A DNA stretch of 49,726 bases from an uncultured Bacilli bacterium. GTDB taxonomy: Bacteria > Bacillota_I > Bacilli_A > RF39 > UBA660. Under the pieces are notes generated by a model, which did not search any database, was not told the DNA's origin, and worked only from the letters and a program-made list of their open reading frames with translations. This document shows, one piece after another, positions 26,009 to 49,726 of this stretch (position 1 is the stretch's first letter; each line of letters starts with the position of its first letter). The stretch covers positions 1-49,726 of the forward strand of contig CANRCC010000010.1 in NCBI GenBank assembly GCA_947629025.1, written 5' to 3'. The position numbers were made by a program, and so were the translations under genes.

Positions 26009-26872
26009 ATGAATCAAAACAAATTACAAACAATTTCAAATCTATTTGAGGGAAAGGAAATAAGAAGCATCTGGGATAGTGAAAAAGAAGATTATTATTT
26101 TAGTGTTGCTGATGTAATAAGTGCTTTAACTGATAGTAGTAATCCAAGAAATTATTGGAATATGTTAAAGAAAAGAATGAATGAAGAAGAAAAAAGTGAG
26201 TTGTACACAAATTGTGTACAACTGAAAATGAAATCTAAAAAAGATGGGAAAAAATACTTAACAGATACACTTGATACTAAAGGTATTTTAAGATTAATTG
26301 AGTCAGTTCCAAGTCCTAAAGCAGAACCATTTAAAATGTGGTTAGCAACTTTAGGCAGTGAAAGAATCGATGAAGTGTTTGATCCTGAGATTGCAATAAA
26401 AAGAGCAATTAACTATTATCGTAAAAGAGGATATTCTAATGAATGGATTGAAGCTAGATTAAAAGGAATACTAAATAGAAATAAACTAACTGATATATGG
26501 AAAGATGGAGGCATTGTAAAAGATTATGAATATGGAATACTAACGAATGAAATATATAAAGAATGGTCAGGTATGAAAGCAAGTGAATATAAAGTACATA
26601 AAGGTCTTCGTAAAGAATCATTAAGAGATAATATGTCTGATATTGAAGTTGTTCTTACTGATTTAGGAGAAATTGCAACAAGAGAAATTGCTAAGGAACA
26701 TAGGCCTCATGGACTAGAGCAAAATAAAGTGATTGCTAAAATGGGTGGACATGCTGCAAAGGTTGCTAGAGATGATATTGAAAAGAATTTAGGTAAAACA
26801 GTAATTAGCAATCAAAATAATCTTAACTATCAATATTTAGAAGAACAAGAAAAATTGGAAAATAAAAAATAA
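26009..26872 (+). CDS. BRO-N / DinD-like protein, copy 1
   Basis: A 287-residue protein with an N-terminal Bro-N domain (residues about 10-120: IRSIWDSEKEDYYFSVADVI, NPRNYWNMLKKR, TLDTKGILRLIESVPSPKAEPFKMWLATLGSERIDE in pieces) and a C-terminal DinD-like part (LTDIWKDGGI, LTNEIYKEWSGM, HKGLRKESLRDNMSDIE, then HAAKVARDDIEKNLGKTVIS). Such proteins are found in phages and accessory regions; Bro-N domains bind DNA and E. coli DinD inhibits RecA function. A paralogue sits at 30300 and a scrap of a third at 31964. A 25-bp dyad lies inside the reading frame at 26199. Target and role here are unknown. Confidence 0.88.
   Translation: MNQNKLQTISNLFEGKEIRSIWDSEKEDYYFSVADVISALTDSSNPRNYWNMLKKRMNEEEKSELYTNCVQLKMKSKKDGKKYLTDTLDTKGILRLIESVPSPKAEPFKMWLATLGSERIDEVFDPEIAIKRAINYYRKRGYSNEWIEARLKGILNRNKLTDIWKDGGIVKDYEYGILTNEIYKEWSGMKASEYKVHKGLRKESLRDNMSDIEVVLTDLGEIATREIAKEHRPHGLEQNKVIAKMGGHAAKVARDDIEKNLGKTVISNQNNLNYQYLEEQEKLENKK
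26199..26223. repeat. Perfect intragenic dyad in BRO gene 1
   Basis: AGTTGTACACAA and TTGTGTACAACT are exact reverse complements around a single A (26211). The centre is the middle base of an Asn codon. BRO gene 2 has a dyad of the same size in the same codon register but with a different inner sequence. Confidence 0.9.
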
Positions 26873-30299: not shown

Positions 30300-31139
30300 A
30301 TGGATAAAGAAAAAATGTATTTAGTAAACAAAATATTTAATAATGAAACAATTAGAACAGTTTGGAGTAAGGATGAAGAAAAATATTTTATAAGTGTTGT
30401 AGATATAGTAGGTGTTATTTCAGAAAGTAATAATCCAAGAAATTATTGGAAAGTTTTAAAACATAGATTAAAACAGGAGGGAAATGAGTTGGTTACAAAC
30501 TGTAACCAACTGAAATTAAAATCTCCTGATGGTAAATATTATAATACTGATGTTGTTGATATAGAAGGAATGTTTAGAATTATTGAGTCAATACCAAGTA
30601 AAAATGCAGAACCTATCAAGCAATGGTTAGCAAAACTTGGTAGTGAAAGAATAGATGAGACATTTGATCCTTCAATTGCAGTACAAAGAGCAATAGATTT
30701 ATATAGATTTAAAGGTTATGATGAAAAATGGATTATAAAAAGAGTTAAAGGTATTCAAGCTAGAAAACAACTTACTGATGTCTGGAATGATTGCGGAATA
30801 ACAAATTCAAAAGAATATGCAATTTTAACAAATGAAATATATAAAGAATGGTCTGGTATGACATCAAAAGAGTATAAATCTTTTAAAGGTCTTAGAAAAG
30901 AATCTCTAAGAGATAATATGACTGATATTGAAGTAGCACTTGCTGATTTAGGTGAATTAGCAGCTCGCGACATAGCAGCAAATGAGCATCCACAAGGCTT
31001 AAAAGAAAATATGAAAGTTGCTACACGTGGCGGTAAAGTAGCAAGTGCAGCTAGAATTTCTTATGAACAAGAAACTAAAAAATCAGCAATATCAAATGAA
31101 AATGCACTTAATTATCAGTATTTGGAAAATAAAAAATAG
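30300..31139 (+). CDS. BRO-N / DinD-like protein, copy 2
   Basis: A 279-residue paralogue of the protein at 26009. The Bro-N domain (about residues 10-115) includes YFISVVDIVGVI, NNPRNYWKVLKHRL, and FRIIESIPSKNAEPIKQWLA. The C-terminal DinD-like part includes LTDVWNDCGI, LTNEIYKEWSGM and GLRKESLRDNMTDIE. The two copies match along their full length but clearly diverge, so the duplication is not recent or they were acquired separately. It has an AAAGGAGG RBS and a strong promoter. A dyad inside the gene (30487) mirrors the one in copy 1. The role is unknown; DNA-damage control is a possibility by analogy with DinD. Confidence 0.88.
   Translation: MDKEKMYLVNKIFNNETIRTVWSKDEEKYFISVVDIVGVISESNNPRNYWKVLKHRLKQEGNELVTNCNQLKLKSPDGKYYNTDVVDIEGMFRIIESIPSKNAEPIKQWLAKLGSERIDETFDPSIAVQRAIDLYRFKGYDEKWIIKRVKGIQARKQLTDVWNDCGITNSKEYAILTNEIYKEWSGMTSKEYKSFKGLRKESLRDNMTDIEVALADLGELAARDIAANEHPQGLKENMKVATRGGKVASAARISYEQETKKSAISNENALNYQYLENKK
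30487..30511. repeat. Intragenic dyad in BRO gene 2
   Basis: AGTTGGTTACA and TGTAACCAACT are exact reverse complements around AAC, centred at 30499, the middle base of an Asn codon. Size and codon register are the same as in BRO gene 1. Confidence 0.9.
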
Positions 31140-32050: not shown

Positions 32051-32141
32051 TATACTATAGTATAATAAATAAAATAATTTAGTTATTTTTATATATAACT
32101 ATTACATATATTAATGTATTTTCTATTAGTGAGGTGGCAAT

Positions 32142-32738
32142 ATGAATTGTATAATTTTTAGAATAATAATAATTATTTTATTAAAATTTGTATGTAATCA
32201 CATAGGTAATCAAAAGATAAAATACTGTTATTTTATATTTTTCATATTAATTTGTATTTATCCAATTGAAAATAAAGTTTTTAAATTTAATTCTTCTGAT
32301 AAGGCATTTAGTTATTATTATCCTACATCAAAAATATTAAAGAAATATGAATGTAATAATTATGTATATATAGTTTATGAACCACAAAAAAATAAGTTAC
32401 CAGAATTTATGTATTTAATAAAAGAAGATGGAACTTGGAAAATTAATAATTTGATAACAAAAGGAGAAGTTATTCCTAAAATATTTGATGAAATATGTAC
32501 TATGTATATTATTAAACCAAAAAAAAGTGATTCAATAGGTATTGCCGTCTATCATGATAAAGATGGATCTGATGGTGCGATATCAGATTCATTATCTTCC
32601 AATTTTGATAAATTCACTACTAATTTGGATGAAATTAGTGATGAAGATGTAGATGTAGTTATTTTAAAAAAGAAAGTAGATAAGGATTATACAATATATC
32701 TTAATGGAAATGAATATAAACCATTTGCTAATAAGTAG
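32142..32738 (+). CDS. Orphan immunity-like membrane protein (copy of the gene after RHS)
   Basis: A 198-residue protein with two hydrophobic segments at the N-terminus (about residues 3-18 and 29-40), then a soluble domain (KAFSYYYPTSKILKKYECNN, YIVYEPQKNKLPEFMYLIKE, later DSIGIAVYHDKDGSDGAIS). The family is not recognised. Its first 129 codons match the gene that starts 18 bp after the RHS gene at 49340: nine nucleotide differences fall in codons 3-38, and codons 39-129 are identical. A gene right after an RHS toxin gene is normally its immunity gene, so this is probably an orphan immunity copy. The RBS is GAGGTGG, shared with the other copy. Confidence 0.7.
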   Translation: MNCIIFRIIIIILLKFVCNHIGNQKIKYCYFIFFILICIYPIENKVFKFNSSDKAFSYYYPTSKILKKYECNNYVYIVYEPQKNKLPEFMYLIKEDGTWKINNLITKGEVIPKIFDEICTMYIIKPKKSDSIGIAVYHDKDGSDGAISDSLSSNFDKFTTNLDEISDEDVDVVILKKKVDKDYTIYLNGNEYKPFANK

Positions 32739-32785
32739 AAATTATAATATATATTATGATTTAAACAAAATTTGCTTCAAGAAAA

Positions 32786-32829
32786 AAATAAATAGGTATT
32801 TTATATACCTTTTTATTGTGGTATAATAC
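32786..32829 (+). repeat. Intergenic repeat A, copy 1 (terminator plus promoter)
   Basis: AGGTATTTTATATACCT forms a stem followed by T residues, then TGTGGTATAAT as an extended -10. The same block recurs at 37251-37295. Similarity continues more loosely for about 90 bp. Confidence 0.75.
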
Positions 32830-32940
32830 TATTTGAAAAAAATGGTAATTTAAATAATTTATAATGAACTTGAATTTATAATTAATATTTTATATTATAA
32901 AAATGATTTTTAATTTAAAAGGAGATAGTATAGAACAATT

Positions 32941-33492
32941 ATGAAGAGAATTATGGATGATAAGGATAGTAAGAAAATTTTTAGTTATGATAAAGATATA
33001 AATTTTGAGGAATTTAGTGACTATTTCAAAACATTTTCTAAAAAGCTATCAAAAAAATGGTTTTTGCCATTTACAATTATATATTTATTTTTAGCAGTAC
33101 TTGTATTTATGTTTAAAAAGACATCCACATCCGATTTTTTCCTTGTAATATTTATATACTTTGTTATTATTTTTATAATTAAAATTGTTAAAATTTTAAA
33201 TAATGAAAATCTAGCCAAAAAAATATATAATAAAAGTATTAAATCATTAAAAAATAAAAATAATATATTAGATTTTTATGAGGGATATCTTATAGTAAAT
33301 ATGTGTAATGGTGCTAAAAAGATTTATTATATGTATTTAAAAAAAATTATTGAAAATGATAAATACTTTTATTTAATTGATGATACACGATTACGAGTAT
33401 GGTTAAATAAGGAGATACTTAATGATGAACAAATAGACTTCATTAGAGATATTAATATAGATATTTATGAGGATAGATGTAAAAAAAATTAA
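32941..33492 (+). CDS. YcxB-like membrane protein 1 (immunity-like)
   Basis: A 183-residue protein with a short cytoplasmic start (DSKKIFSYDKDINFEEF), two membrane spans (about residues 42-58 and 66-84) and a C-terminal beta-rich domain (NILDFYEGYLIVNMCNGAKK, YLKKIIENDKYFYLIDD). This is the YcxB-like layout. A paralogue follows 90 bp downstream with matching start and end. The AAGGAG is 16 bases from ATG 32941, longer than usual, but the start aligns with that of the paralogue. Small two-span proteins of this type are common among orphan immunity genes, which is an inference from context. Confidence 0.68.
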   Translation: MKRIMDDKDSKKIFSYDKDINFEEFSDYFKTFSKKLSKKWFLPFTIIYLFLAVLVFMFKKTSTSDFFLVIFIYFVIIFIIKIVKILNNENLAKKIYNKSIKSLKNKNNILDFYEGYLIVNMCNGAKKIYYMYLKKIIENDKYFYLIDDTRLRVWLNKEILNDEQIDFIRDINIDIYEDRCKKN

Positions 33493-33581
33493 GTATAATT
33501 ATTGTAATAATTATCTATTTTACTAATTCAAATTTCTTATTTATGAGAACTAAATAAGTTTGAGGGAGGAGAATATAAAAA

Positions 33582-34148
33582 ATGGAAAAAATTATGGACA
33601 ATGAAGGTAGTAAGAAAATTTTCAGTTATGATAAAGATATAAGTTTTTATGAATTTAAGGACTATTTCAAAACGTTTTATAAAGAAATTTCAAAAGAATT
33701 TCTTATGAAATTTACTATTTTATATTTATTTTTTATATTATCTGGATCTTCAAATGAAAATAACAATATATATGATTATTTATTAGTATTAGCATTGTAT
33801 TTATTTTGTATTTTTCTATGGCTAGGACCTTCACATAGAAAAAAATATGAAAAGAAACAATATAAAAGGTATATTTATTTGGAAAAGGGAAGAAATAATG
33901 TCTCATATTTTTATAAAGAATATTTTATATCAAATGTTGGTACTTTTGCCAGAAAGATTTATTATATAGATTTAAAAAAAATTATTGAAAACGACAAATA
34001 TTTTTATTTAATTTATGATACAAAATCACCAATATGGTTAAATAAGAAAGTACTTAATGATGAACAAAAAGACTTTATTAGAAATATTAATATAAATGTT
34101 TATAAAAATAAATGTAGAAAAGATAAAAAGATTTTAGAAAAAAATTAA
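33582..34148 (+). CDS. YcxB-like membrane protein 2 (tandem paralogue)
   Basis: A 188-residue paralogue of the gene before it. The N-terminus (IMDNEGSKKIFSYDKDISFY) and the C-terminal domain (KIYYIDLKKIIENDKYFYLI, then LNDEQKDFIRNIN) are close, while the two membrane spans (about residues 42-60 and 68-85) differ almost completely. The strong GGGAGGAG RBS supports ATG 33582. Conservation of soluble ends with diversified membrane core is notable and parallels the mosaic seen in the immunity-like pair at 32142 and 49340. Confidence 0.68.
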   Translation: MEKIMDNEGSKKIFSYDKDISFYEFKDYFKTFYKEISKEFLMKFTILYLFFILSGSSNENNNIYDYLLVLALYLFCIFLWLGPSHRKKYEKKQYKRYIYLEKGRNNVSYFYKEYFISNVGTFARKIYYIDLKKIIENDKYFYLIYDTKSPIWLNKKVLNDEQKDFIRNININVYKNKCRKDKKILEKN

Positions 34149-34584
34149 ATTTTTTCTTATTAAGATTAATATCATAATATATTAAAATGATATATAACAA
34201 TAAACAAAATATTAATACTGTAAATATTAACATCAATTTACTAATTTTAGTATTTATGTCTGTATTAGTTTAATATAAAATAATATTTTAAAACTATTAA
34301 TAACTTGCTATTTCTAATTTACAAATGGAATATTAAAATACAAGAGATATTTATATGAATTATAAAATTTCTAAAATAACAATGCCTATTTCTATCTTAT
34401 CAATTGTTCTTGGATTTAGATATAAAAAAAGGAGATTAAATAGTGATAAAAATATAACTATTGGGGTAATAATGCTTTAATATTTTTCTTATTTAATAAA
34501 AAGTAATATTTAATTATAAACATATATTATGTTATAATTTTAATGATAATATTATTGTATAAATTAATTATAAAATAGGAGAGA
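34149..34584. other. Gap with gene scrap and repeat C copy 2
   Basis: No full gene. A 41-residue frame at 34355-34480 (KISKITMPISILSIVLGF, then RYKKRRLNSDKNITIGVIML) has no clear RBS and looks like a decayed two-helix membrane protein of the DUF4190 kind. Repeat C copy 2 at 34517-34575 supplies TGTTATAATT as a likely extended -10 for the next gene. The rest is AT-rich with nothing I can name. Confidence 0.5.
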
Positions 34585-34590
34585 GTGTTT

Positions 34591-35061
34591 ATGAAATTAA
34601 AATATTTGATAATATTTTTATTAATTATTATTTTTGTAAGAATATTTCGATCTAATATTAATATATATAACAATTTATATGACAATTATGATTCTATTGC
34701 CAATTATGTAAATAATAATTATAAAGAATTAGAAAAAATATCTAAGAAATATATTGCAGGTGAAAAGGTAAAATATCCAGGTGTGATAGAATATATTACT
34801 GTTTGTGCTGAATATGAGTCTTATTGTACTAGTACAACTACAACTGTACACTTTACGACTAGTACAAAAGGATTAGTCCCTTCAGGTACAAGTATTGGTT
34901 TTTACTATTCAACAAATGATATTCCTGTAGGTTATGAAGGTGGATATGATAATCTAGAAAAAGTAGGGAAAAATAAATGGAAATGGAATGATGTAGGAGA
35001 CAATCATGGAACAACAATAAAAATAAGAGATAATTGGTATTATTTTGATGCATCATTTTAA
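34591..35061 (+). CDS. Membrane-anchored small protein, unknown (immunity-like)
   Basis: A 156-residue protein. One N-terminal hydrophobic helix (about residues 3-19) anchors a beta-rich domain with a Thr/Ser-rich middle (YCTSTTTTVHFTTSTKG) and an aromatic end (KNKWKWNDVGDNHGTTIK, IRDNWYYFDASF). Two cysteines frame the first strand (VCAEYESYC). AGGAGA lies eight bases before ATG 34591, better than the in-frame GTG at 34585. I do not recognise the family. Size, single anchor and location among duplicated small membrane proteins suggest an immunity-type protein. Confidence 0.6.
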   Translation: MKLKYLIIFLLIIIFVRIFRSNINIYNNLYDNYDSIANYVNNNYKELEKISKKYIAGEKVKYPGVIEYITVCAEYESYCTSTTTTVHFTTSTKGLVPSGTSIGFYYSTNDIPVGYEGGYDNLEKVGKNKWKWNDVGDNHGTTIKIRDNWYYFDASF

Positions 35062-35117
35062 TTTGATATAATGAAAGTAAAATATATATTTATTTAAAAT
35101 ATTGTTTGGAGGTAATT

Positions 35118-35639
35118 ATGAAAAAAATTTTTATAGTGATATTTAGTATTTTTATATTTTTAACATTTTTTACAGGATGTAACCTAAATAAAAATAAAGT
35201 TGAATTTAAGGATGATTTTGGCTATAATACTCCAAGTGTTGTAACATATAAATTTATTGGTAAGTCAAAACATTTTGCATTTCATACAGGTAAGGCATAT
35301 TATGGAAATGATAATTATCAATATTTATACATTAATAATTTTGAAAAAATTAATACGATTAAAGATGAAAAAAATATAATCAGTTATAAGATTTATGTAT
35401 TATTTAATAATAAATCTTTAACTTCAGATGAAATGAATGAACTAAATGGAGATAAACTAGATGATAAAATAAAAAATTTTGAAGTTGAAGAAAGTGGAAT
35501 AGCAGGTAATGCTGAATCAGATGCATTTTTAGAAACTAGTAAATATAACTTTAAAAAATATATTAAAGTAAAGATAAAATATTGTTTTAAAAATAATAAA
35601 TGTGAAGAAGAACCTCTTAATATAAGTTACATAGAGTAA
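35118..35639 (+). CDS. Small lipoprotein, unknown (immunity-like)
   Basis: A 173-residue lipoprotein with signal peptide and lipobox FTGC (cysteine near residue 21). The mature part has a beta-rich central segment (VVTYKFIGKSKHFAFHTGKA, YLYINNFEKI) and an acidic linker, ending KYIKVKIKYCFKNNKCEEEP with a close cysteine pair. GGAGG precedes ATG 35118; the TTG at 35106 is too early. The signature FAFHTGKAYYG followed by YLYI occurs in small lipoproteins of Firmicutes with no known role. Position in this array again suggests a surface immunity or antagonist protein. Confidence 0.6.
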   Translation: MKKIFIVIFSIFIFLTFFTGCNLNKNKVEFKDDFGYNTPSVVTYKFIGKSKHFAFHTGKAYYGNDNYQYLYINNFEKINTIKDEKNIISYKIYVLFNNKSLTSDEMNELNGDKLDDKIKNFEVEESGIAGNAESDAFLETSKYNFKKYIKVKIKYCFKNNKCEEEPLNISYIE

Positions 35640-35897
35640 AGTATTATTAAATTTTAACTTTCGTAAATTTTAAAAATTAAGGACTTGACTTAAGTCTTTT
35701 TTCTTTTCAATAAATAAGGTATGTACACATATATTTTATTAAAAGATATTTATAGTTAAGATGCATATTTGGTAAATGCATTACTAACAAATTTAGATAC
35801 AAAGTATGATAAAAAAATGTAAATCAAATAATGTAAATATTGCTATATTATTAAAAAATAATATAATATTGTTATAGTTGAAAGGAGTTTACTGGTT
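35640..35897. other. Gap with repeat B copy 1 and a gene scrap
   Basis: Repeat B copy 1 spans about 35676-35750: a GACTTAAGTC terminator-like stem with T tract and the block ATGTACACATATATTTTATT, which recurs at 38256-38312 ahead of the PBP gene. At 35760-35822 a frame without start (DAYLVNALLTNLDTKYDKKM and stop) looks like the tail of a lost gene. No complete gene is seen. Confidence 0.6.
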
Positions 35898-35984
35898 ATG
35901 AAAAACAAAAACACACTAAAAAATGATTATATAAATGTAAATGGAATTAATATGTGCGTAGGAGATGATGAAAGTGGCAGATAG
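35898..35984 (+). CDS. 28-residue leader-like peptide overlapping next gene
   Basis: A strong AAAGGAG lies ten bases before ATG 35898. The peptide (MKNKNTLKNDYINVNGINMC then VGDDESGR) ends 10 bases inside the next frame. It may be a short leader that couples translation to the following gene, or the former N-terminus of that gene cut off by a frameshift. I cannot decide. Confidence 0.4.
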   Translation: MKNKNTLKNDYINVNGINMCVGDDESGR

Positions 35985-36270
35985 AAAAGATGTAAAATTA
36001 GAAAATCTAAATATTGATGGTTCGTTTGAAGGAGTAGATGTTAGTGATATTGATTTAAACAAATCTGATGAAGATAAGAAAGTGTCAGATAAAGAAGATG
36101 CTTATCTAGATCCTCAAACAGTAAAAGATGTAAAATTAGATAAAAAAACGTTAGAAAACCTAAAAGAAAATCTAAAACATATTCCATCATTTGAAGGGGC
36201 AGATGTTAGTGATATTGATACTAACAAAATTAATGAAGAAAATTATAGTGAACCAAAAATTAGAAGATAA
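35974..36270 (+). CDS. Small acidic protein with two SFEGxDVSDID repeats
   Basis: About 98 residues from GTG 35974, which has AGGAG nine bases upstream; ATG 35965 is possible. It is soluble, acidic and Lys-rich, with a repeated unit: LENLNIDGSFEGVDVSDIDL and LKHIPSFEGADVSDIDTNK. No signal peptide and no membrane span. The family is not recognised. It overlaps a 28-residue frame with a stronger RBS. It sits in the array of small orphan genes between a lipoprotein and a membrane protein. Confidence 0.5.
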   Translation: MADRKDVKLENLNIDGSFEGVDVSDIDLNKSDEDKKVSDKEDAYLDPQTVKDVKLDKKTLENLKENLKHIPSFEGADVSDIDTNKINEENYSEPKIRR

Positions 36271-36313
36271 TATAACAAAAGCATTTTAAGAACAATAAGT
36301 AAAGTAAATATTT

Positions 36314-36337
36314 GACCTAATAATAGGTCTTTTTTTG
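36314..36337 (+). terminator. Terminator after repeat protein
   Basis: GACCTA and TAGGTC enclose ATAA and are followed by seven T. Confidence 0.75.
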
Positions 36338-36678
36338 TCGTTAAAAGATTGACAAAATGTTATTGAGGAGGGTATACTGATAATATATTTAATGATAAAG
36401 GTATTAGTAATAAGGATAATAGAATAAATAAGATAGGAAAAATAAATATAGAATGGTAAAACAAATGAAATATGATGTAAATTTTTGATTTGTAATTAAT
36501 ATTACTAACTAGATAATAGCAAAATTGAGGTATATGTTACTATTGATAGTGGTAAAACTTTTATATATGATATTTTCAACTATAAAGATGAATTTATGGT
36601 GAATAAATATTAAAAAAAGAGTGATTAGATTAATTATACTTATAATAATAGAGTTTTAGAAAGGAAATAATATAGTTT
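36338..36678. other. Gap with a promoter and decayed gene pieces
   Basis: TTGACA at 36349-36354 and TATACT at 36373-36378 (18-bp spacer) form a plausible promoter that now leads into broken coding sequence. Readable pieces are NDKGISNKDNRINKIGKINI near 36391-36459 and DNSKIEVYVTIDSGKTFIYD plus IFNYKDEFMVNKY near 36511-36612, in different frames and with no start. They look like the remains of one small gene of the array. Confidence 0.5.
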
Positions 36679-37113
36679 ATGAGTAAAAAAATAAAGTTTA
36701 TAATAATACCTTTAATTATTTTATTAATTACTTTTTTATCTTTTATTTTATTAAATAAATATAATAAATTAAAGGAAAAAAAACTAAATGAAAATAGGTA
36801 TAATGAGATAAGAAAAAGTGTGGAAAAAGCAGTTAAATGGAATATAGGTGCTATGTATCCTAATTGTGAAATATCTGACGGTTTTAAAGATTTATCAGAC
36901 ATACACTATAATTCATCATTTTTAATAAATAATGGTTATTTAAAAAAAGAAGAATTATTAGATATAGATAATAAATCATATTGTGATGTATATGTAGATA
37001 TAAAAACAGAGTATAAAGATAAATTAGATTATCAAAAAGATTGTAAAATTTACTATAAGATTTATTTAAAATGTAATGAATATGTAGATAAAGGATATAT
37101 TAATTGGAATTAA
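36679..37113 (+). CDS. Small membrane-anchored, pilin-like protein
   Basis: A 144-residue protein with a basic start (MSKKIK), one hydrophobic helix (about residues 7-26), a charged helix, and a small globular end. The pattern SSFLINNGYLKKEELLDID, KSYCDVYVDIK and KIYLKCNEYVDKGYINW resembles the C-terminal domain of pseudopilin-like proteins, including the cysteine pair, but there is no prepilin Gly-Phe cleavage motif. AAGGAA lies 12 bases before the ATG. It may be a surface or immunity-type protein; the function is unknown. Confidence 0.55.
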   Translation: MSKKIKFIIIPLIILLITFLSFILLNKYNKLKEKKLNENRYNEIRKSVEKAVKWNIGAMYPNCEISDGFKDLSDIHYNSSFLINNGYLKKEELLDIDNKSYCDVYVDIKTEYKDKLDYQKDCKIYYKIYLKCNEYVDKGYINWN

Positions 37114-37174: not shown

Positions 37175-37250
37175 ATACAATAAATTTAGATAGGGAGTAT
37201 GATACTGATATGACATTTGAAATAAACTCATAATATAAAACTAAATATGA

Positions 37251-37295
37251 AAATAAATAGGTATTTTATATACCTTTTTATTGTGGTACAATATT
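37251..37295 (+). repeat. Intergenic repeat A, copy 2 (terminator plus promoter)
   Basis: The block AAATAAATAGGTATTTTATA and the following TACCT stem, T tract and TGTGGTACAAT repeat copy 1 at 32786 with one change in the -10. It precedes the PHP gene and probably drives it. Confidence 0.75.
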
Positions 37296-37404
37296 ATTGG
37301 AAATAAATAGTAATATATAATGTAATTGAATTTATAATTATATATTTTTAATGAATATGTATGGCTAGTTATAGCCATTTAGTAAGAAAGTTAGGAGATT
37401 AAAT

Positions 37405-38324: not shown

Positions 38325-39419
38325 GTGTTCTTTAAAGATATTCATATTAGAATTAGATTATTTTTTGTAATTGTTATAATACTTTTTTTAGTAATAATTG
38401 GAAAAGTTGTTTATATCCAAGTATTTGAATATGATAAGTTAAAAGAATTGTCATCAGATCTTTGGAGTCGTAATCTTCCTGTTGAGGGGAATAGAGGAAT
38501 AATATATGATAGAAATAGCGTAATACTTGCAGATAATGTTACAACAACTAGTTTAGTACTTATACCAAATCAAATAAAAGAAAAAGATAGAGCAATAAAA
38601 GAATTATCAAAAATACTTGGTATATCAGAAGAAGAAATGAGTAAACATGTAAATAAAAAAACATCAATAGAAAGAGTTCATCCAGAGGGAAGAAGATTAT
38701 CATTTGATATTGCAGATAAAATATCAGCATTAAATTTAGAGGGAGTATATTTAATAAAAGAATCAAAAAGAAACTACCCATATGATAAAAATTTATCACA
38801 TGTTCTTGGTTATGTTGGTATTGATAATCAAGGTTTATCAGGACTTGAACTTCAATATAATGAATATTTAACTGGAGAATATGGTTCAATAAAATATTTC
38901 TCAGATGCTAAAGGAAATAAGCTAAAACTAAGTGAAATATATGAACAACCACAAGATGGAGTTAATATGATGCTTACTATAAATAATGAAATACAAATGT
39001 CTGTTGAAAGAGAATTAGATAATGCTGTTATGAAATATAATGCAGAAAAAGCATTATCAATAGTTATGGATCCTAATTCAGGAGAAATACTTGCTATGAG
39101 TTCAAGACCTAATTTTTCACCTTCTAATTATAAAAAATATACTATAGAAGAAATAAATAGAAATTTACCAATATGGATGAATTATGAACCAGGATCAACT
39201 TTCAAGATTATAACACTTGCAACTGCACTTGAAGAAAACTTAGTTGATTTAGAAAAAGAACATTTTTATGATGGAGGAAGTGTTAGAGTAGCAAATGCAA
39301 AAATAAAATGTTGGAAAAAAGGGGGACATGGAGATCAAACTTTTCTTCAAGTTGTTGAAAATTCATGCAATCTTGGTGTCAATACAGCAACACATACAAA
39401 TTTGAAGAAAATGCTTTAA
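38325..39419 (+). pseudogene. Truncated class B penicillin-binding protein (SpoVD/PBP2B-like)
   Basis: The first ~350 residues are a clear class B PBP: anchor helix at about residues 12-30, dimerisation domain (GNRGIIYDRNSVILADN), then the transpeptidase with the catalytic serine of STFK near residue 291 and the SCN triad at about 347. Directly after SCN-LG the match stops and the frame ends 15 residues later, so the KTG motif and the last third of the domain are missing. It cannot be a working transpeptidase. GTG 38325 has AAGGTGA upstream. A full PBP of the same class is at 14098. Either a deletion or insertion junction, or an assembly join, lies near 39375. Confidence 0.85.
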
Positions 39420-40300
39420 ATAACACAAAAAACCATACCCAAATTGATGTTTGTTCTACCTTTAATTTAGTTTATAATAATGTATCTTACATAAATAATG
39501 AGGATATTAAAATAGATAATTCTGTAATACAAATTATTTCTAACAAAAAGGATAATACTAAAAAAATCAATAATAAATTATTTAATATAGATACTAATAC
39601 TTATGAAAATATAATATATAATAAAAAACAAATTGCTATTGATTTATTAAATAGATTAGATTCTTCTATAATGGCTATCAGTAAAAATATTATAAAGAAT
39701 TATTTGATAAAAAATATCGTTTATAAATTAAATAATAGAATTGCTGAAATACAAGTAAATCAAAATAACTTATTAGTATCTTTTCATAAGGTTGCTAAAC
39801 AATTTGATATTGAAAATAAGTTAATAGATCGTAAAGGATATGAAAATAATAGTATATGCTATTCTTTAAATGTTGAAGATATTAATAGTTGTGATTATGC
39901 AACTAAAATTATTGAAAATATGTATAACTTTTTTACTACCCCACAAGAAAGTTTAAGTAATAGTTTATTCAATACTTTAAAATTTAAAATTAGTACATTA
40001 AGCACTTCTATAAGTAACCATACGACTAATAAGGGATTAATGTTTAAAGGAAAAAGAAATTTTGTATTATTATCAAAAACAAATTATGGTGTTTATGTTA
40101 GGTTATTAAATGTTGCTAATTCAAATAATGAGTTAGATGTTGTTACTAGAAAAAGTTATGAGCCACTATGTTTATCATACAAAGTTAAAAATAATGATGA
40201 TATTGATACATTATTTCCTTATATCAAAGAAAGTTATGAGATGTGCAATATTAACCCAATTGATTTAAAATATGAATTTTACAAAATCTATCAAGTTTAA
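39377..40300 (+). pseudogene. N-terminally truncated protein with two DUF5655-like repeats
   Basis: The frame is open from the PBP junction to 40300, but no RBS or plausible start is present, so the 5' end is probably lost. From about residue 90 of the open frame there are two similar domains. The first has SIMAISKNIIKNYLIKNIVY and FDIENKLIDRKGYENNSICY and ends CDYATKIIENMYNFF; the second has GKRNFVLLSKTNYGVYVRLL and DDIDTLFPYIKESYEM. The order (basic Asn-Phe strand, paired strands, then a D-D-I-D helix ending S-Y-E) fits the DUF5655 family, found at the C-terminus of some nucleic-acid-related proteins. A terminator follows. Confidence 0.55.
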
Positions 40301-43063: not shown

Positions 43064-46000
43064 ATGAATCAAATAGAAATTATTGGTAAAAGAAAAAAAA
43101 GAGAAAAACATTTTTTACAAGACGATGGTACAATAGTCGCAGAAATGTATAATGAAAATGTCCATTTTCTTAAAAATGGACAATATGAAGAAATAGATAA
43201 CACTCTTATTTTAAAAGACGATTATTATATTAATAGGAATAACGAATATAGTGTTAGTTTTGCATCAAAATCAAGATCCAACATAATAAAATTAGAAAAA
43301 GAGAAACATTATATTTATTTATCATTAGATAAATTTAATGATTTTAATGTTGAATATATAGATTTTAAAAATAAACTTAATAGTAAAATAATATATCAGA
43401 ATGTTCTTAAAAATATAGATATATATTATGATATCACTCCATCAAAAATCAAAGAGAATATAGTTATTAATAATCTAGATAATGAATTAGATAAACTTGT
43501 ATTTAACATTGAAACTGATTTAGTTTTAAAAACAGATAATAATGGAAGCATAAGAGCAACATATAATGGTGAAGACGTATTTATTTTTGATTCACCTTAT
43601 ATGATTGATAGTAAAGGAAAAATTAGCAATAAATTAACTTATAATTTAATAAAAGATGAAGAAAAATATCAATTGTTTATGTTTATTGATAAAAAATGGT
43701 TAGAGTCAAAAGCAATATATCCAGTTATTATAGATCCAACAATAACAAGTTATAGTGAGAATGATAACGTTTATGATACTTTTATATATCCAGGAGATAC
43801 AAATATTAATAGAAATAATTTACCTTATTTAAAAGCTGGTGTAGAAAAAGTTAATGGTAATGATGTAATAAATAGAACTCTTTTAAAATTTAATTTACCT
43901 ACAATAGGTACAGGGAGCCAAGTTGTAAAAGCAACATTAAATTTGACGGATTACCCAGATATTTTTCATAATTACGAACATGGTAGTGTAGATTTTCATA
44001 GAATAACTCAAGACTGGGATGAAACTACTGCAAACTGGGATACAATGAATAATAAATATGACAGTAGAGTAGAAGGTATGTGCATTTGTAATAGATTATA
44101 TTATACAGATGATGATGGTGTCATTAATTATGTAAGTAGTTCTTCTACAGATATAACTTCTCTAGTTCAAAAATGGTATACTAATCTTCCTAATTATGGA
44201 ATAATGTTAAAAACAAGTGAAGAAATATATAAAACTGATGGATTTCCAATGTTTTTTTCAAAAAATAATGCTATAACAAGTGGTTATAATCCAAAACCAT
44301 TATTGATAGTTACATACAGAAATCAGAATGGCTTAGAAAATTATATGGAGTATGAAATTCAAGAATTTACAAAAGGAAAATCATATCATAACATCTATAA
44401 TGGAAATCTTACTCAAATTTTTGAAATAGGCTTAATAAAAAATAGTAAAATGCCATTAAATTTAAATCTTGTTTATAATACAAATGATGTAGTTTTGAAA
44501 AATAATATTGGATATGGAAGAGGTTATAGATTAAATTTTTATCAAACTATTAAAGAAGAAAAGATAGACGAAAAAAATTATATAGAATATACTGATGAAG
44601 ATGGTACACTTCATTATTTCTTAAATGAGAAAACATCAATTGAAGATGATAATTTAAAAACAAATAATACTGGTAATATATACTACGATGAAGATGGTCT
44701 TGATTTGAAAATAGAAATTACTGATGACAAATATGTAATGTATGATAAAAGTGGTAATCAGATGATATTTGAAAAATATAAAGAAGTTGGATATTTAACA
44801 GAAATAAAAGATATAAGTGGTAATATTAGTACAATTCTTTATGATGCAGAATATAAAAAAATATTAGGTATAAGAGGTTGTGAGGATCAATACATTAATA
44901 TAATTTACAATAATAATTATATATCAATTATCAGTCCACTTCATACAGTTGAATTATCTTATTTAGATAGTGATATTTTAAGTAATATAATATATGAAAC
45001 AGGTACAGTTTATATTTTTCATAATGAAAATTATTTAGTTTCGGGTATTAGAGGCTTGAATGGAAAAGGTTTTGATTATGAATATTATAGTGAAATTCCA
45101 TATAAGTTAAAAAAAGTAACTGAAATTGGGATTGATGATATTATTGGAAATTATTATAATGTTGAATATGGATTTAATACAACATCTGTTATTGATTCAA
45201 AAAATAGAATAAAAACAATAGCATTTAATAACTATGGTAATCCAATATGTATATCTAGTTTAAAGTCCAGTAATGATATTACCAATGCATATGGCTATAA
45301 TGTTGAATATGGTGAATCTATAAATGGATATAATGTATATAAAAATAAATTATTAAGTAGTATGATACCAGTAAAATATGTTAAAAATATTCTTAAGGAT
45401 ACAAGTTTTGAAAATAGTACGATTACTTTTTTACCAAATGCCTCTTCATCAGTAGAAATAACGGAAGAATATGCAAATTTAGGATCTAAAAGTTTAAAGT
45501 TTAGATCAATTGATGGTTTAAATCCAGCGGAAATATCCCAAGAAATTAAAGTTACTAAAGGAAAAAGTTATACATTCAGTGCATATATAAAGACAATTTC
45601 TTCTGAGTATTCTGTAAATTTATGTATAGGTTATTATGATGAAAATGGTGATTTTATAAAAATGTTAAGTGATTGTACAACAAACGAAGATGATGATTTT
45701 GAAAGATTAGATGCAACAATTTTTTATTCAGAATCATCTTCATCAAATTTAATATTAAAAATTTGTATGAATGGGGTAGGAACTTGCTTTATTGATAATG
45801 TTCAACTTGAGGAAGGCGAGGTAGCGAATAATTATAATTTAATAGATAACTCTGATTTTTCAGATGGATTTAATGATTGGAATTTACAATCAGGAGAGAA
45901 TTATCCAGTGTCTAATATATTTAACATTGTTAATATTGATAACCAAAATGCATTAAAAGTCAATATGTTCACATCTAATGGGAGTAGTTTATCAAAGAAA

Positions 46001-49000
46001 TTTAATATAAGTGGTAAAGCTGGTGATCATTATGTATTATCATTTTGGTATAAAAATAAAGGTTTAAATGGAGTATCTTTATTTGAAGAAGGCCCAATAA
46101 ATGGCATTAGTATTACATTCTATCCTGATAATGATACAGGTTTTGGTGGAGATACAATTGAAAATTATACATTAAATCCTGGTGAGGATCAATGGCAATT
46201 TTTTATACATGATTTTTATGCTGATTATGATTTTAAAAATTTTGAACTAGACTTTTATCAAGTATTTAATGGAAATGAATTTTATATAACAAATATTAAT
46301 TTCTTTAAGGATGTTAGAAGTGTCAGATATGATTATGACAGCAATGGAAATCTAATAAAATCAAAAAATTTAAATAATCAAATAAATGAGTTTAATTATG
46401 ATAAAAATAATCAACTTGTTAAAATGACTGAATATAAGGGTGCAAATTTTCATTATGAATATGACAATACTATAATAGATAGATTACTTAGGGGTGTATC
46501 GGGTACTGGAATTTCAAATGAAATGGAGTATGATGAATATGGTAATCCAATAATATCTAGAATTATTGACAGGGGTCAAATGATTACTGCAGAGAGTGGA
46601 ATTTATAAAATAAGATTAAAAGGAACAAATAGAGCATTGAGATTATTTAATCATTCTATATTATTAGTTGATGATATACATGGTCACGATAAATGGAATT
46701 TAGAAAAAGTAATCGTAGATGGTAAAGATTATTATAAAATATTCCATTCTATAATAGATGATAGATATTTAACAAATAGTGATGAGAGTATAGTTTTATC
46801 AGCATATCAAGAAGAAAAATCATTATTTGAATTAGAAAAACAAGATAATGGTAGTTTTCATATAAAAAATAAATCAAACGATAAGTATATAAAAAATGAT
46901 AATAATTTTATAGTTTTTGACAGTTTAATAGATGATGATGAAAATTTCGAATTTTATTTTGAATCTATTACAAATGGATTGTTTATTGAAAACTCTGCTC
47001 AATATACTTCAGATGGAAGATTTATTGAAAAAACTATAGATACTAATTTTAAAGAAATTAATTATGATATAGATCCTGTGACTGGTAATATAAATTCCAT
47101 AACGAATTCTAAAAATCAAATAACACATTATAATTACGATAATGATGGCAAAATCATTTATATAATGAACAATGATAGAAAAGTTAGTTATGAATATAAT
47201 AACAACAAAGTTTTAAGTAAAATAATTCAAGATGATAGAGTTTATAGTTTTGAATATGATAAATTTTTAAATGTTAAATCAATTAAACTAGGTGATAGTG
47301 TAATTTTAGTAGATAAAACTTATGAAAATAACAATGGTAATTTGTTATCAATTACTTATGGCAATAATCAAACTATTAATTATGAATATGATGAATTTGA
47401 TAGAATTAGTAAAACGATAAAAGGTGATGATACGTATAGTTATAAGTATAATAATAATGGTGATTTAATAAAAATAATATCTAACAATGATATTATAAAA
47501 TATACATATGATCTAGCTAAAAGACTATACGAATATCAGAATAATAATTTTAAAATAAAGTATAATTATGATGTAAATGATAATGTTATTTCAAAAAAAT
47601 ATTCATTAGATAATATTAATCATACAATTAATAATATTTTAAATGAAGATGATTCTGTAATAAAGACAAGTATTGATAATGATGAAATAAATTATAATTA
47701 TGATGGCTTAGGAAGACTAGTAAGTAGTAATATAAATAACAATTATGAAACAAAATATCAATATATAACAAATGGTAAGAGAACTTCAACGATGGTTAAA
47801 AGTATAAGTAATAATGGTGATAAATATACGTATAAATATGATAGTTTAAATAATATTACACATATTTATCACAATGGTGTATTAGAAAATGAGTATTATT
47901 ATGATGAATATAATCAATTAGTAAAAGAAAATAATTATATTACTAATAAAATTGTACAATACGAATATGATAATTTAGGTAATATATTATATAAAACAGA
48001 ATATGAAATAAATACAAAAAATAAAATAAATCAAAATAAATATGAATATAATAATTTAAATTGGAAAGATCAATTAACTAAATTTGATAATATAGCAATT
48101 AATTATGATAATTTAGGTAATCCGATATCAATAGGAGATAATATAAAAATAAGTTGGATAAATGGTCGACAAATGAATAGTTATGTAGATTCAAAAAACG
48201 TTATTAATTATAGATATAATAAAGATGGTCTAAGAATAAGTAAAATAATTAACAATAAAGAAACAAAATATTATTTAGAGGGTGAAAAAATAGTACTTGA
48301 ACAAACAGATGATGATGTGTTATACTATTTATACGATGGAATAGGAAACATAATTGGTTTTGAATATAAAAATAATAGATATTATTATATAAAAAATAAT
48401 CAAAATGATATTATTGCTATTCTAAATAATAATTATAATATTATAGCAAAGTATATATATGATTCATGGGGAAATATTATATCTATTACTGATGAAAATG
48501 GTATTGATGTGTCTGATAATATCAATCATATAGCAAATATAAATCCATATAGATATAGAAGTTACTATTATGATAAAGAAACAAAATTATATTATTTGAA
48601 CTCTAGATATTATAATCCAAAATGGTGTAGATTCATAAATACAGATAGAATTATAGATAATGAAAATTCCATCCAAGGTAATTTATATGTATATTGTGCA
48701 AATGATCCTATTAATAAAGTTGACTTAAGTGGTAGTTCATTCAAAAGTTTTATAGGAAAAGTAGTTAAAGCAGTAAAAAAGATTGCTAAAATAGTAAAGA
48801 ATGTTGTTGATAAAATAGTATCATCATCAAAAGTGACAAGAACTAGTCATTCTTCAGGTACTAAAGGTTTTATTGTAAAAGTAGAAGATATTAAAACTAA
48901 AGATATTATAACATCTAAAACAGGTAATGATGATAGTCTATTTAAGATAATAGAATATGATAGACCATTTGATATTAATGATCTTAAAAGTATTATAAAT

Positions 49001-49321
49001 ATAGATAGTTTATTAATTTCGACTAATAATAGAATCTTTGATGTAGGTTTAGAAATAGGTAATGGATGGGCAGTTGACTTTTCTTGGAAACAAGATAGTG
49101 GAAACGGAGTACTTTCAATAGGTGCAAACTTATTTGGACAATTTTTCATCGACGTTGGACATGCAGGAGAAGTAAAAAATAATATTCAAAAAACGAGTAC
49201 TACTAATGTTAGTATCAATATATTAATATTAGCATATGCATTTGCCCATATTACAGTACCAGAATTTGATGTTTCAAAAATATTAAAATCTATTTTTTCT
49301 AAACCAAAGCTGTCATATTAA
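43064..49321 (+). CDS. Giant RHS/YD-repeat polymorphic toxin, no signal peptide
   Basis: A 2085-residue protein. Residues 1-225 form a beta-rich N-terminal domain without signal peptide. A DNRLRE-like domain follows (about 235-420: TLLKFNLPTIG, WDETTANWDTMN, WYTNLPNYGIML), then RHS/YD repeats, two carbohydrate-binding-like domains (about 776-1075: DTSFENSTITF, GKSYTFSAYIKT), more YD repeats, a ricin-like beta-trefoil insert (about 1175-1300), and YD repeats to about 1795. The RHS core ends YYLNSRYYNPKWCRFINTD and YCANDPINKVDLSG at about residue 1890. The last ~195 residues are the likely toxin, family unknown. RBS AAAGGAGG. It follows phage-like genes and precedes an immunity-like gene by 18 bp. 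Confidence 0.93.
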   Translation: MNQIEIIGKRKKREKHFLQDDGTIVAEMYNENVHFLKNGQYEEIDNTLILKDDYYINRNNEYSVSFASKSRSNIIKLEKEKHYIYLSLDKFNDFNVEYIDFKNKLNSKIIYQNVLKNIDIYYDITPSKIKENIVINNLDNELDKLVFNIETDLVLKTDNNGSIRATYNGEDVFIFDSPYMIDSKGKISNKLTYNLIKDEEKYQLFMFIDKKWLESKAIYPVIIDPTITSYSENDNVYDTFIYPGDTNINRNNLPYLKAGVEKVNGNDVINRTLLKFNLPTIGTGSQVVKATLNLTDYPDIFHNYEHGSVDFHRITQDWDETTANWDTMNNKYDSRVEGMCICNRLYYTDDDGVINYVSSSSTDITSLVQKWYTNLPNYGIMLKTSEEIYKTDGFPMFFSKNNAITSGYNPKPLLIVTYRNQNGLENYMEYEIQEFTKGKSYHNIYNGNLTQIFEIGLIKNSKMPLNLNLVYNTNDVVLKNNIGYGRGYRLNFYQTIKEEKIDEKNYIEYTDEDGTLHYFLNEKTSIEDDNLKTNNTGNIYYDEDGLDLKIEITDDKYVMYDKSGNQMIFEKYKEVGYLTEIKDISGNISTILYDAEYKKILGIRGCEDQYINIIYNNNYISIISPLHTVELSYLDSDILSNIIYETGTVYIFHNENYLVSGIRGLNGKGFDYEYYSEIPYKLKKVTEIGIDDIIGNYYNVEYGFNTTSVIDSKNRIKTIAFNNYGNPICISSLKSSNDITNAYGYNVEYGESINGYNVYKNKLLSSMIPVKYVKNILKDTSFENSTITFLPNASSSVEITEEYANLGSKSLKFRSIDGLNPAEISQEIKVTKGKSYTFSAYIKTISSEYSVNLCIGYYDENGDFIKMLSDCTTNEDDDFERLDATIFYSESSSSNLILKICMNGVGTCFIDNVQLEEGEVANNYNLIDNSDFSDGFNDWNLQSGENYPVSNIFNIVNIDNQNALKVNMFTSNGSSLSKKFNISGKAGDHYVLSFWYKNKGLNGVSLFEEGPINGISITFYPDNDTGFGGDTIENYTLNPGEDQWQFFIHDFYADYDFKNFELDFYQVFNGNEFYITNINFFKDVRSVRYDYDSNGNLIKSKNLNNQINEFNYDKNNQLVKMTEYKGANFHYEYDNTIIDRLLRGVSGTGISNEMEYDEYGNPIISRIIDRGQMITAESGIYKIRLKGTNRALRLFNHSILLVDDIHGHDKWNLEKVIVDGKDYYKIFHSIIDDRYLTNSDESIVLSAYQEEKSLFELEKQDNGSFHIKNKSNDKYIKNDNNFIVFDSLIDDDENFEFYFESITNGLFIENSAQYTSDGRFIEKTIDTNFKEINYDIDPVTGNINSITNSKNQITHYNYDNDGKIIYIMNNDRKVSYEYNNNKVLSKIIQDDRVYSFEYDKFLNVKSIKLGDSVILVDKTYENNNGNLLSITYGNNQTINYEYDEFDRISKTIKGDDTYSYKYNNNGDLIKIISNNDIIKYTYDLAKRLYEYQNNNFKIKYNYDVNDNVISKKYSLDNINHTINNILNEDDSVIKTSIDNDEINYNYDGLGRLVSSNINNNYETKYQYITNGKRTSTMVKSISNNGDKYTYKYDSLNNITHIYHNGVLENEYYYDEYNQLVKENNYITNKIVQYEYDNLGNILYKTEYEINTKNKINQNKYEYNNLNWKDQLTKFDNIAINYDNLGNPISIGDNIKISWINGRQMNSYVDSKNVINYRYNKDGLRISKIINNKETKYYLEGEKIVLEQTDDDVLYYLYDGIGNIIGFEYKNNRYYYIKNNQNDIIAILNNNYNIIAKYIYDSWGNIISITDENGIDVSDNINHIANINPYRYRSYYYDKETKLYYLNSRYYNPKWCRFINTDRIIDNENSIQGNLYVYCANDPINKVDLSGSSFKSFIGKVVKAVKKIAKIVKNVVDKIVSSSKVTRTSHSSGTKGFIVKVEDIKTKDIITSKTGNDDSLFKIIEYDRPFDINDLKSIINIDSLLISTNNRIFDVGLEIGNGWAVDFSWKQDSGNGVLSIGANLFGQFFIDVGHAGEVKNNIQKTSTTNVSINILILAYAFAHITVPEFDVSKILKSIFSKPKLSY

Positions 49322-49339
49322 AAATAAAGAGGTGGCAAT

Positions 49340-49726
49340 ATGAATTATATACTTTTTAGAATAATAATAATTATTTTATTAGAATTTGCATATAAGCACA
49401 TAGGTAATCAAAAGATAAAAAACTTTTATTTTATATTTTTCATATTAATTTTTATTTATCCAATTGAAAATAAAGTTTTTAAATTTAATTCTTCTGATAA
49501 GGCATTTAGTTATTATTATCCTACATCAAAAATATTAAAGAAATATGAATGTAATAATTATGTATATATAGTTTATGAACCACAAAAAAATAAGTTACCA
49601 GAATTTATGTATTTAATAAAAGAAGATGGAACTTGGAAAATTAATAATTTGATAACAAAAGGAGAAGTTATTCCTAAAATATTTGATGAAATATGTACTA
49701 TGTATATTATTAAACCAAAAAAAAGT
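49340..49726 (+). CDS. Likely RHS immunity gene (partial, runs off window)
   Basis: It starts 18 bp after the RHS gene behind GAGGTGG. The first 129 codons are present. The protein has two N-terminal hydrophobic segments and then the same soluble domain as the gene at 32142. Codons 39-129 are identical to that copy at the nucleotide level, while nine differences, all changing the amino acid, fall in codons 3-38. Four of them turn Cys of the orphan copy into Tyr or Phe here. Position makes it the presumed immunity protein of the RHS toxin. The membrane anchor suggests it acts at the membrane. The 3' end is outside the window. Confidence 0.72.
   Translation, partial: MNYILFRIIIIILLEFAYKHIGNQKIKNFYFIFFILIFIYPIENKVFKFNSSDKAFSYYYPTSKILKKYECNNYVYIVYEPQKNKLPEFMYLIKEDGTWKINNLITKGEVIPKIFDEICTMYIIKPKKS

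Follow-up and report, generated by a model that had tools for sequence, protein, structure and literature searches.

The window analysed here, 49,726 nucleotides in length, is the whole of contig C10 (CANRCC010000010.1) from an uncultured bacterium of the Bacilli (RF39, UBA660), whose assembly (GCA_947629025.1, 1.12 Mb in 36 contigs) is approximately 91% complete. The lineage comprises gut bacteria known here from metagenome assemblies. Seven small open reading frames (ORFs), referred to as genes A to G, were called at 32142-37113, all on the + strand, and form an array that had been noticed at this place from the sequence alone and likened to a bank of immunity genes. The array lies approximately 6 kb upstream of a gene for an RHS protein, with a PHP-domain gene, the 5' part of ftsI and phage-like genes between the two. 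Coordinates of D and E are given from starts shifted to ATG.

Gene A, 32142..32738, + strand: 198 amino acids (aa) with two N-terminal membrane spans; orphan copy of the RHS-downstream gene
Gene B, 32941..33492, + strand: 183 aa, YcxB-like membrane protein with two spans; paralogue of C
Gene C, 33582..34148, + strand: 188 aa, YcxB-like membrane protein with one span at the threshold used
Gene D, 34591..35061, + strand: 156 aa, one span
Gene E, 35118..35639, + strand: predicted lipoprotein of 173 aa with a hydrophobic start and the lipobox FTGC
Gene F, 35965..36270, + strand: 101 aa with an internal repeat and no membrane anchor
Gene G, 36679..37113, + strand: 144 aa, one span
RHS protein, 43064..49321, + strand: 2085 aa, the last ~200 aa being a tip without known domain
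Gene A', 49340..49726, + strand: immediately follows the RHS gene and is truncated by the contig end

Hydropathy predicted a membrane span or a lipobox in six of the seven array proteins, F having neither, in agreement with the preliminary description. That description had also given each gene its own ribosome binding site: by eye, the upstream bases hold a Shine-Dalgarno-like stretch at the usual distance in A, C, D and E, farther from the ATG than usual in B and G, and abutting the ATG in F, so that the true start of F may lie a few codons later. The intergenic gaps from A to G measure 202, 89, 442, 56, 325 and 408 bp. No toxin gene was found between the array genes, non-RHS toxins having been sought only by family-library scans, and the sole RHS core match of the assembly lies at 48458-48733. 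Upstream of ftsI, the one congener compared (genome G001) carries different genes.

Gene A and its relatives behind RHS genes

One gene of the array had been described as a copy of the gene downstream of the RHS toxin, and the alignment bears this out: 32131-32528 (A) and 49329-49726 (A') are identical at 389 of 398 nucleotides (97.7%). A' starts 19 bp after the RHS gene. All nine differences fall within the first 113 nucleotides of the gene, which code for the two spans, and every one changes the protein, while the final 274 nucleotides of A' before the contig end are identical to A. A second contig of the assembly, C22, overlaps the end of C10 in an imperfect join (218 of 222 bases identical); because of the four mismatches, the identical end of A and A' may be partly an assembly effect. 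Read in reverse, C22 begins inside an A-family gene and continues with endolysin, holin and NAD-metabolism genes, a large serine recombinase gene, the 3' part of ftsI, mraY and ftsW (gene names from reading of the translations). The two contigs most likely join across A', since the 5' part of ftsI lies at 38325-39419 and the 3' part on C22. If the C22 piece is the rest of A', 12 of the 13 nucleotide differences to A (differing gene ends excluded) change the protein, counts that are too small to claim selection.

A single-sequence search with A of 147 genomes, its own included, returned its own genome and the congeners G001 and G006, with borderline matches in G029 and G060. A profile (A1), used without iteration against 386 genomes of the family, added G203 and G443. 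The A gene of G207 was found through RHS loci fetched later; it scored E 3.5e-11 in a direct run of profile A1 and had been missed by the genome-wide search, so the tallies of the genome searches are lower bounds. Matches of an iterated A profile at loci L193, L103, L225 and L113 were dropped as drift, none reaching E <0.01 with the non-iterated profile; L193 4492-5187 and L103 3950-4648 read like sigma factors. Within the named collection, A has relatives in two metagenome-assembled genomes of Bacilli, one labelled Lapin (presumably rabbit) and one from roe deer. Family A matched nothing in searches of Pfam, NCBIfam, PHROGs, PADLOC and, by profile A1, the PDB, and had no relative in the viral contigs or plasmids searched.

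In G203 the A gene starts 16 bp after a 2094-aa RHS gene, in an arrangement much as in the window. G443 has two tandem A copies, the first 26 bp after the RHS end, and in G207 the A gene, again 26 bp after the RHS end, is followed by the next RHS core. An A-family start thus lies 16-26 bp after RHS in four loci (the window, G203, G443 and G207), which is the layout of an RHS tip with its immunity gene, where a small gene stands directly after the RHS gene and changes with the tip. In RHS cassettes, tip and immunity gene move together, and the order in G207 indicates that A travels with the toxin tip. The three further genomes span two genera; G207 and G443 bear the same genus label and are not fully independent. 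Counted from the A searches at E 0.001, two of the four A loci outside the own genome lie directly behind RHS (G203 and G443, not G001 and G006).

Inspected by eye, the A-linked RHS proteins have tips that begin lysine-rich and end hydrophobic and are 18-33% identical to the tip in the window. The latter (~200 aa) had no convincing family match in library scans and no relative in the viral contigs searched; its profile matched one unrelated-looking chain in the PDB at E 0.08.

The endolysin and holin genes that follow the A gene in the window (taken with C22) and in G203 would fit a different function for A, as part of a phage-like RHS module, for instance a lysis or release protein, and not an antidote. 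We regard this as improbable. The A genes of G207 and G443 stand after RHS ends without endolysin or holin, the next RHS core following in G207, and in G404 a gene of the B/C family, described below, occupies the place behind a similar RHS gene that has a tail-collar gene upstream.

Genes B and C, their relatives, and genes D to G

B and C are 50% identical paralogues. Against the YcxB-like family PF14317 they score 18.0 and 18.7 bits, below the gathering cut-off of 23.3 bits, and their relatives in G257 and G404 score 24.0 and 22.5 bits. The profile used for this family (A2) matches 36 of the 386 family genomes, the own genome included, and members often lie within open frames of >350 aa that carry a second membrane part. 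Weak iterated matches at L140, L142, L097, L223, L216 and L189 6152-6883 were dropped. Neither B nor C had a relative in the viral contigs searched, nor did C in the plasmids searched.

Among the 35 B/C loci not chosen for RHS, two of which (G071 L088 and G207 L188) look like one element, three have an RHS gene within 5 kb (G257, G404 and G370); B/C matches in G390, G225 and G301 are left out of this count. Approximately 0.06 of 35 loci would be expected under random placement (P about 4e-5), a lenient null given the clustering of accessory genes in islands; the expectation is based on 35 RHS clusters, counted by contig, and assumes 1.24 Mb for the mean genome and 4 kb for the span of a cluster. 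In G404 the B/C gene is the first after a 2088-aa RHS gene, 168 bp away on the same strand, and no other candidate antidote precedes it. In G370 it is the second gene after the RHS gene. In G196 (contig C5, a locus fetched for its RHS) it lies next to the RHS gene, convergent and 69 bp away, and in G257 it lies on the opposite strand 3.1 kb behind RHS, as part of a mixed bank that also includes DUF5412 and DUF5071 genes. An A-family gene and a B/C-family gene adjoin, in that order, in both G001 and the window.

The loci in G257 (C2, L189) and G196 (C5, L210) are clearer banks than that of the window, being groups of small genes behind RHS with YcxB-like members. L189 has its DUF5412 and DUF5071 genes by Pfam and adjoins ribosomal protein genes, and L210 has two DUF5071-like genes by reading.

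Approached from the RHS side, an initial survey took the ORFs in the first three places behind 71 RHS-core ORFs (126 ORFs, behind 63 of the 71) and gave A' as the sole match to A-G. This negative was overturned, for A and B/C only, when profiles were run against further genomes. In 122 stretches, 107 ORFs have an RHS core and 99 of these an ORF within 1.5 kb downstream, with A-family genes at 4 and B/C genes at 3; some of the stretches had been fetched for A or B/C, so these figures are not rates, and the RHS counts rest on non-iterated profiles.

Gene scraps had been described within the array, and two decayed genes were located, the second by a weaker match:

Relic of a B/C-family fusion protein (its C-terminal membrane half), 34202..34474, + strand: sequence match
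Probable relic of a gene neighbouring G in G049, 36509..36592, + strand: weak match

The first relic scored 44.7 bits against the C-terminal half of B/C-family fusions (best of 40 shuffles 33.5). As it corresponds to the second part of a B/C-type fusion, C may be a shortened gene. The other scored 35.0 bits against the gene beside G in G049 (best of 40 shuffles 33.9).

A toxin-tail relic at 34188-34254 was considered and rejected. Over 22 aa it matches the end of the RHS toxin with a score of 57, where 500 shuffles reached at most 50, and there is a weak nucleotide match at 34196-34391. The same stretch joins the B/C-fusion relic in the right order, and the seven best matches of that segment include no RHS protein. 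It is better read as part of that relic; a toxin tail is less probable.

For D, only weak matches were obtained (best E 8e-4), and membership of the H family, small membrane proteins of G196, G001 and G067, was rejected, D not being among the matches listed for the H profile. Solid homologues amount to one for E, in G016, and to seven loci across six genomes for G, the latter at E 5e-11 or better; these counts exclude further E and G matches near E 0.001-0.01. E had no relative in the viral contigs searched, and G none in the plasmids searched.

Small membrane proteins and lipoproteins are common in protection against bacteriocins or phages, and the neighbour of the array at 30300-31139 matches a candidate defence family of PADLOC, as would be expected if the genes guarded against something of that kind and the link to RHS were secondary. 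We consider this very improbable: none of A-G matches PADLOC at E 0.01, and A stands behind RHS genes in four loci.

A candidate bank of membrane immunity genes

The array is, in our judgement, rather probably a mixed and partly decayed bank of membrane immunity genes. All seven genes lie on the + strand, and an immunity-type context was found for A, B and C only. For A, the immunity reading is supported by context; for B and C it is probable; for the rest it is unproven. Homologues beside toxin genes, on which the preliminary description had staked its interpretation, were found for A (G203, G443 and G207, in addition to the window) and for B/C (G404, G370, G196 and G257). The refuting outcome it had named, homologues never next to toxin genes, did not arise for these three genes, and the interpretation is partly supported; it gained nothing from G and E, whose homologues lack an RHS neighbour in the stretches fetched, or from D and F, which lack a toxin link.

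In the mechanism we propose, A would be a second copy of the gene paired with the RHS toxin approximately 10 kb downstream, and B and C would belong to a membrane family probably serving other RHS toxins. Their products, predicted to lie in the cell membrane, would confer immunity by blocking RHS toxins sent by neighbouring cells to the membrane or across it, and the array would in this way protect against toxins of non-kin. A toxin that acts at the membrane is the simplest reading, since the likely antidotes are membrane proteins.

Several observations weigh against a bank, besides the lenient null and the two loci resembling one element mentioned above. Thirty-two of the 35 B/C loci lack an RHS gene within 5 kb (on average 7.7 of 10 kb examinable), and several lie among ordinary chromosomal genes. 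The A genes of G001 and G006 have no RHS in the fetched stretches, nor was any found in those two assemblies. No RHS was found at the seven G loci in the stretches fetched or at the one E locus, on a 6.8-kb contig of G016; D has no trusted homologue; and F was compared only with ORFs of fetched loci and family libraries, not whole genomes. Four of the six gaps exceed 200 bp, unlike the small intergenic distances of a polyimmunity locus. The structure models of A and C (mean predicted local distance difference test, pLDDT, of 52.9 and 42.3) are too poor for a fold search and give no usable fold. B also matches Ac76 (PF05814, a baculovirus family) at 25.8 bits over a cut-off of 22.5, taken as a chance match of membrane helices.

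The absence of RHS from most B/C loci and all G loci in the stretch examined could also reflect a general accessory island, in which only A is related to RHS, B to G are unrelated leftovers of mobile elements, and the proximity of B/C to RHS comes from shared island sites. In G001 and G004 the B/C members are isolated in a chromosomal setting, and several G homologues lie beside conjugation-like, XRE-regulator and other accessory genes (names by reading). This explanation is possible though doubtful, given the B/C gene of G404, first behind its RHS gene with no other candidate antidote between, the adjoining A and B/C genes in two species, and the placing of the B/C genes of G257 and G196 inside groups of small genes behind RHS genes.

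More tentatively still, and as a picture that may well prove wrong, the gut Bacilli of this family would have RHS toxins whose undescribed tip probably acts at the membrane, countered by two undescribed families of membrane-anchored immunity proteins (A and the YcxB-like B/C), the array serving as a reservoir that exchanges sequence with the RHS-downstream gene. Such exchange would explain why A and A' are mostly identical yet differ in the membrane helices.

The type of locus is already known, and what would be new is the assignment of families A and B/C as RHS immunity. Polyimmunity loci of polymorphic toxin systems had been described by 2012 as tandem immunity genes at short spacing whose contents differ among close relatives (Zhang et al. 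2012, PMC3482391). The array resembles their heterogeneous form in its unrelated, putative immunity genes in one orientation with no toxin between, and departs from it in its mostly large gaps, its decayed genes and the four of seven genes without a toxin link. In Staphylococcus aureus, TsaI is the membrane antidote of the membrane-depolarising toxin TspA and occurs in two to sixteen copies (PMC9484751); there too, several membrane immunity genes with gene fragments among them lie near a polymorphic toxin. TsaI genes, however, stand directly downstream of tspA and form one family (DUF443, predicted five spans), whereas the array has at least two unrelated families, wider spacing and a position upstream of the RHS gene; TspA is moreover a type VII substrate (PMC9484751), and the RHS protein here belongs to a phage-like element. 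Orphan immunity genes have been reported in several groups. Those in the acquired interbacterial defence clusters of gut Bacteroidales (PMC12247911, PMC10470768) likewise lie away from the toxin, but answer type VI effectors, whereas the likely toxins here are RHS proteins of Bacilli. Among the YcxB titles listed, none was about toxins, and the word YcxB is absent from the examined part of the 2012 survey (PMC3482391); a literature search for RF39 with Rhs and toxin gave no match.

Gene context points to two membrane families, one unnamed and one only YcxB-like, as candidate RHS immunity proteins, and to the RHS tip as a toxin candidate that could be tested in a laboratory strain. If this is true, genes annotated as hypothetical in the lineage could be traces of earlier contact with RHS toxins.

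Repeated spacer, ftsI and the flanking cassette

The repeated spacers of the preliminary description were recovered as two copies:

Repeated spacer copy 1, 32785..32891, + strand: terminator/promoter-like
Repeated spacer copy 2, 37250..37348, + strand: 83% identical to copy 1

By eye the spacer combines a short hairpin with a run of T and a TATAAT-like box, for which reason it is taken as probably a terminator/promoter unit. A search of eight genomes of the genus gave a single related stretch in each of two congeners, where it lies at or between genes in a different neighbourhood, and a 36-bp piece at another site of the own genome.

Near the array, the match of 30300-31139 to PADLOC is to candidate defence family PDC-S13 (E 8e-112), and a related stretch (71% at the DNA level) lies at 26085-26677.

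The ftsI/SpoVD-type gene (38325-39419) is cut just after its SCN motif, and its 3' part lies on C22 (L010) behind the large serine recombinase. In G001 (contig C9, L011) ftsI is cut at the same place, and in G042 (contig C1, L112), which is of another genus, RHS, a related recombinase and the ftsI 3' part stand in a row. This gene, which looks essential, seems to serve such elements as a recurrent site of insertion. An inverted repeat of approximately 600 bp (90%) links 39391-40001 with L010 (C22, reversed 2028-2629); if C10 and C22 join, this repeat flanks the RHS-lysis cassette, which could then invert. Between the ftsI parts, both the own genome (L010) and G001 (L011) carry a block of NAD-metabolism genes with a recombinase, and the NAD-metabolism proteins of the two are nearly identical by eye.

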